DNA from: Thioalkalivibrio sp. ALE14
GTDB lineage: Bacteria; Pseudomonadota; Gammaproteobacteria; Ectothiorhodospirales; Ectothiorhodospiraceae
Assembly: GCF_000376845.1 (NCBI RefSeq)
Contig: NZ_AQXY01000027.1
Location: 62,001-126,000 of the forward strand
Direction of reading: 5' to 3'
Length of the DNA: 64,000 nt
In this document: positions 20,273-23,556 of the stretch, piece after piece
Layout of the letters: each line of letters starts with the position of its first letter
Position numbering within the stretch: the first letter of the stretch is position 1
Translations under genes and position numbers: made by a program
Notes under the pieces: model-generated
What the model saw: only the letters and a program-made list of their open reading frames with translations
Database searches by the model: none
What the model was told of the DNA's origin: nothing

Positions 20273-20833
20273 TCAGGGATCGCCGACGATCAACCGGTCC
20301 TCACCCACCAGACGGTAATCCGGGATCGGCAGATTGCGCCGGGCGGACTGCCCGGCATAGACCCGTCCAGCCCCGTCGTAACGCCCGCCGCGGCAGCGGT
20401 CGACCAATCCGCCGCTCCAGCCTTCGGCATCATCCGGGTGTACCAGATCCAGTTCGCAACCCAGATCCGTACTCTCGCCGATGACCACCAGCCATTCCGG
20501 CCGGAAACTGCGCAGCGGCAACTCCAGCCCGTCCGGTTGCTGGCCCCGGCGCGCGGCCGGATCCACCAGCTCGTCATCGTCCGCCAGGGCGGCCTGCCAG
20601 GCGGCATCACGATGAACCACCAGCACATGCCGGTTCCCATGGATGAACCGCCCCGCCTCGCCCGGGGCGATTTCCGCAAGATCCACCCGAAGCGTCTCGC
20701 CGCGGGTATCCACTGATCCGGAAAACGCGTACCGCAGCATCACCCCCACCAGCAGCAAGGCGGCTCCCAGCACCATCAGCTTTATGAGCGCGCGAATCCG
20801 CACCCGCGCCAGTGAATCGTTCCCGACTTGCAC
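20273..20833 (-). CDS. Rieske-like membrane protein lacking cluster ligands
   Basis: 186 residues: one N-terminal membrane helix (about 16-36), then a soluble domain resembling the C-terminal part of PetA-type Rieske proteins (GRYDGAGRVYAGQSARRNLP). Aligned to the Rieske motifs CTHLGC and CPCHGS, the sequence reads STDLGC and DRCRGG. All four cluster ligands are replaced (S121, D123, D145, R148) while both cysteines of the conserved disulfide are kept (C126, C147). A [2Fe-2S] cluster is unlikely. GTG start with GGAG eight bases upstream. Function unknown. Confidence 0.75.
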   Translation of the reverse strand: MQVGNDSLARVRIRALIKLMVLGAALLLVGVMLRYAFSGSVDTRGETLRVDLAEIAPGEAGRFIHGNRHVLVVHRDAAWQAALADDDELVDPAARRGQQPDGLELPLRSFRPEWLVVIGESTDLGCELDLVHPDDAEGWSGGLVDRCRGGRYDGAGRVYAGQSARRNLPIPDYRLVGEDRLIVGDP

Positions 20834-20907
20834 CCGTGATCTCCGTTTCCCTCGCCAACCGGCGAAAACGCTTTGCCTGAGCCCAACTCACCCCTACACT
20901 AGGCGGC

Positions 20908-21243
20908 ATGAGAGGACCCAACCGTTCCAACCGCACCTATGTCGGCCTGTACAACGACATGTACGCCGGCATGACCCCCATCGGCAATTTCATCCGCGAT
21001 GCCTGGGTATTCGGCATCCTCCCGGAGACCGAAACCTGTGATGGCTGGGATGTCTCGCGCATCCAGATGCTGCACGACCAGGTCAACGCCGAATGGGACA
21101 AATACGACCTGCGCATCGGCAACCTGCCGCCGGAACTGCGCGAACGCCACGAACGCATCCACCAGGAAGCGATCGAACGCGCCCGCGAACACGGCTGGGT
21201 CCCCGGGCAGGACATCGACAGCGAGATGGGCGACGACGCCTGA
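20908..21243 (+). CDS. Uncharacterised small acidic protein
   Basis: 111 residues, soluble, rich in Glu and Asp, with an aromatic N-terminal part (RTYVGLYNDMYAGMTPIGNF, DAWVFGILPETE) and a helical second half. I do not recognise the family. It begins 74 bases from the divergent Rieske-like gene and its stop overlaps the DUF423 start, so the two are probably co-translated. Codon use and composition match real genes around it. Confidence 0.7.
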   Translation: MRGPNRSNRTYVGLYNDMYAGMTPIGNFIRDAWVFGILPETETCDGWDVSRIQMLHDQVNAEWDKYDLRIGNLPPELRERHERIHQEAIERAREHGWVPGQDIDSEMGDDA

Positions 21244-22020: not shown

Positions 22021-22035
22021 GATCAGTGTTTCCCT
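22021..22035 (-). repeat. Solo end of the 1612-type repeat
   Basis: Minus strand AGGGAAACACTGATC, identical to the first 15 bases of copies A and D, without the body of the element. Its AG completes the TAG stop of the 140-residue gene on the same strand. Confidence 0.75.
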
Positions 22036-22456
22036 AATCCGCTTTTCCCGACCCTTTTTTCGGTTCGTCCTGGCCCGCCGCCGCGCGCTCGTCCGCGGTC
22101 GGCGGCTCGTCTTCAAGGGCGCGCAGATGCGCCTCGACTTCCGCCAGCACGGGGTGGGGTTTGTCCTGCTCCAGTGCCACGTCGATCGCCCTTAACGCCT
22201 CCACCGCCTGCGGATCCCCGCGCAATGGCATGCGCGCGACGCCCAGCGCCAGCATGCGGAACTGGCGAAACACCAGGTAGCTGACGGTCGCCACCACCAG
22301 CGCGCCCCACATGTTGTCCTGGAACCACAGCCACACGGCTGCTCCGTAACCCCCGAAGGTCAGTACGAAGATCCCCAGCGCGACGCGATGGGATCGGGCG
22401 ACGATGCCTTCCAGCACCTCGCGGTTGCGGATTACGAAGTCACGTTCGAAATGCAA
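22034..22456 (-). CDS. Uncharacterised two-helix membrane protein
   Basis: 140 residues; two hydrophobic segments (VALGIFVLTFGGYGAAVWLW and ALVVATVSYLVFRQF), then a charged cytoplasmic C-terminus rich in Glu, Asp and Ala. I do not recognise the family. TTG start with AAGGA upstream. It lies 29 bases downstream of the SoxW-like gene on the same strand. The TAG stop is formed by the solo repeat end. Confidence 0.65.
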   Translation of the reverse strand: MHFERDFVIRNREVLEGIVARSHRVALGIFVLTFGGYGAAVWLWFQDNMWGALVVATVSYLVFRQFRMLALGVARMPLRGDPQAVEALRAIDVALEQDKPHPVLAEVEAHLRALEDEPPTADERAAAGQDEPKKGSGKAD

Positions 22457-22485: not shown

Positions 22486-23556
22486 TCAGGGACGCGGCGG
22501 TTGCTGGGCACGCCAGCGCTCGAAGGTCGGGTAGTCCTCGTAGCCCCGAGTCAGCACGTAGTCCATCACGTTGCGCAGTCGGTTCAGGTGCACGACGGAG
22601 TCGATGCGGATGATCTCCTCGCCCTGCTCATCGAAGAAGATCAGGGTCGGCGCCCAGTGTACATCCAGTCGCGCCGCCCATTCCTTCGGATTCGTGCGTT
22701 CACCAGCGGGCGTCAGTACCGGGGTATCGGCATCGTCGGCATCCAGCTGCACGGCGTCAATCAGCGCGATGCGTTCCAGCACCTCGTCCTGCTGCAGGGG
22801 CTCGGAATGCAGGATATCGCAGGCGTGACAGGCCTCGCGCTCGAAGAACACCACCAGCGGACGATCGGCCGGGATCCGGCTGCGGTCCAGCGCATATGGT
22901 GGATTGACAAAGAAGTCGCGTTCGTTGATGTCGTCCAGATCGAATTTCGGCGGCGGGTTTGCGCGTTCCAGATAGGTGCGGAAGCTCATATCGCGGTCGT
23001 GACGGTCGATCACGTACTCCAGCAACGCCCGGAAACGGTACGGAGGGTAGTAGCCGCGCATCTGGTGAATCCGCTCGCCATCCTCGTCGTAAAAGGCGAT
23101 CGAGGGCGTGAAGTTGAGCCGCTGTTCGGCCGCGTAGCGCCGCTCCATCCAGGTCTCGCCGTCCAGATCGGTGACCTCGCGCGTCCCCAGCGCATCGATG
23201 GCGACGACATTGAAATGCGACGCCAGATAGTCGCGGATATCGTCCTGCGCGAAATTCTTGTCGAACAGCGCCTCGCAGTAGGGACAGTCATCCATGCCGA
23301 AGTAGACGGCCAGTCCCATCTTGCCCTCGGCCACCGCGTCTTCCAGGTCCTCGCGCAGGTCCAGGAAACTCAGTTCGAACCAGTCCGGTGTATGCAGCCC
23401 GATGTGCCGTGGTGTGTCATCGAAGCGCAAATCCTCCTCGAACGAATCCGACCACGCCGGGGTCGGCAACAGCACCAGGGCGAGACAGGCGAGCCATGCC
23501 ATGGCGGCCCAGCGAAAGCGGTTGGGATAACGGGTATCGTTCACTTGGCGCGCCAA
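22486..23556 (-). CDS. Periplasmic protein with two thioredoxin-like domains (SoxW-like)
   Basis: 356 residues. A signal peptide ends near PAWS (36). Two thioredoxin folds follow, each with a CxxC: CPYC at 91-94 and CHAC at 243-246. Each has the cis-Pro context (TPSIAFYDEDG and APTLIFFDEQG). Both domains are of the SoxW/thioredoxin-like type found in sulfur oxidisers; a role in thiol redox in the periplasm is inferred. The start is uncertain: TTG 23556 as given, GTG 23544 possible. It follows serS by 14 bases. Confidence 0.75.
   Translation of the reverse strand: MARQVNDTRYPNRFRWAAMAWLACLALVLLPTPAWSDSFEEDLRFDDTPRHIGLHTPDWFELSFLDLREDLEDAVAEGKMGLAVYFGMDDCPYCEALFDKNFAQDDIRDYLASHFNVVAIDALGTREVTDLDGETWMERRYAAEQRLNFTPSIAFYDEDGERIHQMRGYYPPYRFRALLEYVIDRHDRDMSFRTYLERANPPPKFDLDDINERDFFVNPPYALDRSRIPADRPLVVFFEREACHACDILHSEPLQQDEVLERIALIDAVQLDADDADTPVLTPAGERTNPKEWAARLDVHWAPTLIFFDEQGEEIIRIDSVVHLNRLRNVMDYVLTRGYEDYPTFERWRAQQPPRP

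Follow-up and report, generated by a model that had tools for sequence, protein, structure and literature searches.

A maintained PetA paralogue predicted to lack the Rieske iron-sulfur cluster in Thioalkalivibrio and other Gammaproteobacteria

NirD-type small subunits, each a soluble subunit or domain of nitrite reductase, have a Rieske_2 fold without a cluster. In green plants and algae, PSB33/TEF5 is a thylakoid-anchored protein whose Rieske-like domain has no iron-binding residues, and TEF5 is needed for photosystem II assembly (PMC12164590). The structure of PetA from T. tepidum is that of a cluster-free, Zn-bound, putative immature form, and its authors conclude that formation of the cluster site precedes cluster insertion (PMC10492824); the Rieske fold can therefore stand without its cluster.

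Here, we describe a gene of Thioalkalivibrio sp. ALE14 whose 186-residue product is a Rieske-type protein without cluster ligands, hereafter the clusterless protein. It lies in the window, by which we mean the whole 64,000-nucleotide stretch of DNA that was analysed (Table 1). When the protein was aligned with PetA, which has the motifs CTHLGC and C(P/G)CHGS, all four iron ligands were found to be substituted (C121S, H123D, C145D, and H148R), while the disulfide pair C126/C147 and the RYDGAGRV tail are retained. It matches the NCBIfam model TIGR01416 over residues 18-184 (E 5e-21), at 75.4 bits, which is below the curated cut-off of 97.4. Its best solved relatives are the PetA proteins of P. 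aeruginosa (8smr) and T. tepidum (7yr9), with a PDB match at E 2e-22. No Pfam family was matched up to E 10, NirD (Rieske_2) included, presumably because the boxes that drive the Pfam model are gone. A scan of the locus for promoters and terminators revealed none.

Table 1. Coordinates in the window of the clusterless gene, its parts, and nearby genes.
Feature	Position	Strand	Remarks
Clusterless Rieske (PetA paralogue) gene	20273..20833	-	GTG start at 20833, stop 20273-20275
GGAG, Shine-Dalgarno-like	20841..20844	-	7 nt upstream of the GTG start
Coding sequence of the one predicted N-terminal membrane helix (residues 4-36)	20726..20824	-	AlphaFold2 DSSP and column comparison
Ex-cluster box I, residues 121-126, STDLGC (PetA: CTHLGC)	20456..20473	-	C126 is one half of the disulfide
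Ex-cluster box II, residues 145-150, DRCRGG (PetA: CPCHGS)	20384..20401	-	C147 is one half of the disulfide
hypY	20908..21243	+	Small conserved gene, no Pfam match
Uncharacterised membrane protein gene	22034..22456		Adjoins the next gene
Predicted envelope protein gene	22486..23556	-	Two thioredoxin-like domains

The structure predicted by AlphaFold2 from an alignment of 30 relatives (pLDDT 88.7) consists of a Rieske beta domain and one helix. Its best Foldseek matches are Rieske subunits of bc1 (E 1.9e-14), and VIA-align 2 superposes it on T. tepidum PetA with a Z of 22.2, at 1.6 Å over 140 residues. As modelled, then, the protein is a Rieske fold with one N-terminal membrane helix, and the HMM, PDB, and fold matches rule out a chance resemblance. 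The first-pass annotation, made from the letters alone, had pointed to the motifs STDLGC and DRCRGG, to four lost ligands, and to the kept disulfide cysteines, GRYDGAGRV tail, and single membrane helix, and had proposed structure prediction against PetA; the alignment and the model bear it out on every one of these points.

How widespread is such a protein? Among 38 Ectothiorhodospirales genomes, each at least 90% complete, 36 carry both the clusterless and the canonical protein, the two being cleanly split by score (231-293 versus 124-143 bits); named carriers include species of Thioalkalivibrio and Ectothiorhodospira. In genome G003, absence of the clusterless gene is uncertain since hypY there is at the end of a contig. 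A class-wide search of 370 genomes, with order-level follow-ups, added the family groups that we label f20, f110, f111, f112, f130, and f136, and the gene was found in 26 of the 30 genomes in the order of f130, 9 of the 16 in that of f110, and 2 of the 5 in that of f136. The set amounts to 82 distinct sequences from at least seven gammaproteobacterial families, many of the comparison genomes being MAGs. In a phylum-wide search of 397 genomes, the best 29 matches, which we read, were all ordinary CTHLGC/CPCHGS proteins, the window's gene aside. Within the sample drawn, the family thus looks gammaproteobacterial. Our search of the literature, partial in its coverage, returned no description of a clusterless PetA from bacteria, and the protein is apparently a new, undescribed variant within a known fold family.

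We compared the motifs of these 82 sequences with those of 89 canonical ones. Both disulfide cysteines are kept in 82 of 82 and the ligand cysteines in none, and a ligand histidine survives only once (the first, in L245). At the site of the second ligand cysteine, 80 of the 82 have Asp or Glu. The f110 members (L243-L246) and the MAG sequence L073 are missing a mid-domain stretch of about 20-40 residues, estimated by eye, and in L245 and L246 the YD..GR motif is changed as well. An odd Rieske-like protein, L247 (G257:C49:19923-20396; HSSKWGC ... WLCEVSYDYSGR), shares its genome with a canonical PetA and a clusterless protein. The PetA-like L184 (G354:C1:872299-872715), with CTFDGC / CPCCGS, keeps its cysteines and has both histidine ligands replaced, by Phe and Cys; perhaps it holds a different type of cluster.

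Taken together, and judged from sequence, these findings show a maintained, membrane-anchored Rieske domain that would be unable to hold a normal [2Fe-2S] cluster. That the protein is clusterless, maintained, and non-redox we regard as very nearly certain. What it does is a matter of weighing several readings.

In almost every locus of Thioalkalivibrio and Ectothiorhodospira, the clusterless gene sits between rsmJ and the uncharacterised gene hypY, with a DUF423 gene and the frataxin gene cyaY nearby, the latter about 1 kb away in Ectothiorhodospiraceae. A block of rsmJ, hypY, yajQ, DUF423, and cyaY is conserved alongside it, parts of which also occur in genomes G155, G156, and G278; hypY is divergent from the clusterless gene across Ectothiorhodospiraceae and also in G156 and G278. 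In two distant MAGs (L074:8665-9518 and L075:4645-5515), msrB-cyaY immediately precedes the gene on the same strand. Such proximity would fit a protein that aids Fe-S or iron handling together with CyaY, either as an adaptor on the envelope side or as a placeholder in the maturation of canonical Rieske protein. We consider this improbable since CyaY is cytosolic while the domain is predicted to be periplasmic, since the f20, f110, and f130 genes have other neighbours and are not near cyaY (in f130, rsmJ alone of the immediate neighbours recurs), and since a conserved block can hold genes close together without a functional link. The block consists of housekeeping genes, probably inherited as a unit of synteny, and with neighbours differing in f20, f110, and f130, we dropped any attempt to read a function from them. 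None of the neighbouring genes points to a respiratory complex. Further along the window, a predicted envelope protein with thioredoxin-like domains adjoins an uncharacterised membrane protein (Table 1).

The genome has two Rieske-type genes, the clusterless one and a canonical petA (CTHLGC / CGCHGS) on contig C28. There, petA directly precedes the only cytochrome b gene found in the genome and a cytochrome c1-like gene, in the order petA-petB-petC. The clusterless gene therefore belongs to no cytochrome b operon, and its product lacks a dedicated cytochrome b. Canonical PetA is present in every genome at least 90% complete that carries the clusterless gene, which alone means little, PetA being so common. 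Genomes with canonical PetA and no clusterless gene are also common, and bc1 can therefore do without the clusterless protein. A link between the two is hinted at only in f136, a small sample, where the clusterless gene and a standard petA-petB pair occur together in two genomes and are both missing in three. In genome G783 (L260), hypY and rsmJ flank a clean empty site, and the petA-petB pair is missing too; G278, of the same genus, has the clusterless gene, and both G278 and G784 have the pair.

With the fold, length, and topology of PetA and a canonical PetA always alongside it in near-complete genomes, the protein could be imagined to replace the Rieske subunit in bc1 as a decoy or regulator that throttles electron flow. 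A column comparison speaks against it. A twin-arginine motif is a mark of canonical PetA, as are conserved Gly, Pro, and Ser residues in the helix and hinge. Most clusterless sequences have Leu or Val for the second Arg, and the set has lost the helix and hinge residues, with a conserved R..K start instead; the Pro near the tip is replaced too. This loss of the helix and hinge residues argues against a place at the normal Rieske site, and we give the decoy little credence. In the window's protein, the twin-arginine position reads R-V, followed by R..K, so that the Tat signal of PetA is absent; a strict RRxF Tat-like pattern occurs in 2 of the 82 clusterless and 58 of the 89 canonical sequences. 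Since Tat export is needed by proteins that are folded with their cofactor in the cytoplasm, a joint loss of cluster and Tat motif would make sense.

At the two former histidine sites, 56 of the 82 clusterless sequences pair an acid with Arg, none has the Arg without the acid, 6 have the acid without the Arg, and 20 have neither. This distribution suggests that an Asp/Glu-Arg salt bridge may take the place of the cluster in the empty site; the covariation comes from only two well-supported independent pairs and is not significant on the tree. A charged, emptied pocket with conserved Asp and Arg might alternatively take a small ligand, an ion, or another metal, making the protein a binding or sensing domain. 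The pocket residues vary by lineage (D-R, G-D, G-G, T-G, and S-D), unlike those of a ligand site, and no typical set of metal ligands is left, which makes this reading improbable as well.

The clusterless sequences appear to go back to one event. In a tree of 99 proteins with the motifs included, a branch with 97% SH-aLRT separates them from the rest. When the motif boxes were cut from the alignment, the long-branch PetA L184 intruded, joining L075, and broke the group; a motif-free tree without L184 and L188 again had the clusterless set as one clade, at 93%. Also without the motifs, the tree that holds the set together is 25.7 lnL better than that of the free search, and the AU comparison favours one clade. 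A single origin is thus favoured, and the cluster ligands were most likely lost once and early. Over 62 close clusterless pairs the median dN/dS is 0.22, which indicates purifying selection and therefore excludes decay. That all ligands are lost might have suggested a decaying petA pseudogene, a reading we dismiss given intact frames in dozens of genomes, this dN/dS, an invariant disulfide, and the favoured ancient single origin. The first-pass annotation had suggested a maintained non-redox protein, perhaps a structural or regulatory partner, rather than a decaying gene, and had left it to an HMM search whether ligand loss is a family trait. Maintenance is supported, ligand loss being a trait of the family of 82 proteins, and the counter-example it named, orthologues that keep the ligands, did not turn up, the ligand-bearing relatives being separate canonical PetA proteins in the same genomes.

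The reading we prefer, if tentatively and at somewhat less than even odds as a whole, is that of a cluster-free PetA duplicate kept for its shape, as an interaction module or assembly factor. An ancient duplicate of PetA would have given up its [2Fe-2S] cluster and been retained for its shape. With no cofactor to insert in the cytoplasm, Tat would be unneeded, and the protein could be threaded into the membrane by Sec/YidC and fold in the periplasm. There, the C126-C147 disulfide would hold the empty cluster site together, helped in most members by the Asp-Arg (123/148) salt bridge. The least certain steps are the last: the domain may serve, on the periplasmic side of the membrane, as a non-redox protein-interaction module, most likely as an assembly or stability factor of a respiratory complex, for which bc1 is the first candidate. 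We propose such a periplasmic interaction or assembly module because of the analogy with PSB33/TEF5, and on that analogy an assembly role for the protein is plausible at best and perhaps rather doubtful. The fullest version, in which this once-derived family is dedicated to assembling or stabilising a respiratory complex, in convergence with PSB33/TEF5, and the disulfide and an Asp-Arg pair replaced the cluster, seems unlikely, although less so than the rivals above.

Whatever its role, the family amounts to nature's own test of whether a metalloprotein fold can persist once its metal is gone, the ligands drifting and a disulfide remaining unchanged across a broad range of bacteria. Similarity-based annotation would mislabel its members as electron carriers. 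The role of the clusterless domain can be tested in tractable hosts that are not pathogenic.

Compared with described systems, the protein is closest to PetA (TIGR01416; 7yr9 and 8smr), with which it shares homology over the whole length, the fold, one N-terminal helix, the disulfide pair, and the frame [YF]D.AGR..N.L..P. It differs from PetA in lacking the four iron ligands, the Tat motif, the hinge and helix residues, and the Pro near the tip, in its gene not being beside petB, and in its score under the TIGR01416 cut-off. With NirD it has in common the use of a Rieske fold without a cluster, but NirD is soluble and the clusterless protein has no Pfam match. The Zn-bound, putative immature T. 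tepidum PetA shows a cluster site formed ahead of cluster insertion, but it is a state of normal PetA with its ligands intact (PMC10492824). PSB33/TEF5/LIL8 differs in its C-terminal membrane helices, its location on the stroma side in chloroplasts, and its restriction to the green lineage. Thioalkalivibrio, which carries the clusterless gene, is not phototrophic. PSB33/TEF5 and the clusterless protein are analogous, likened by description, and what they have in common is a conserved, membrane-anchored Rieske-like domain without iron ligands.
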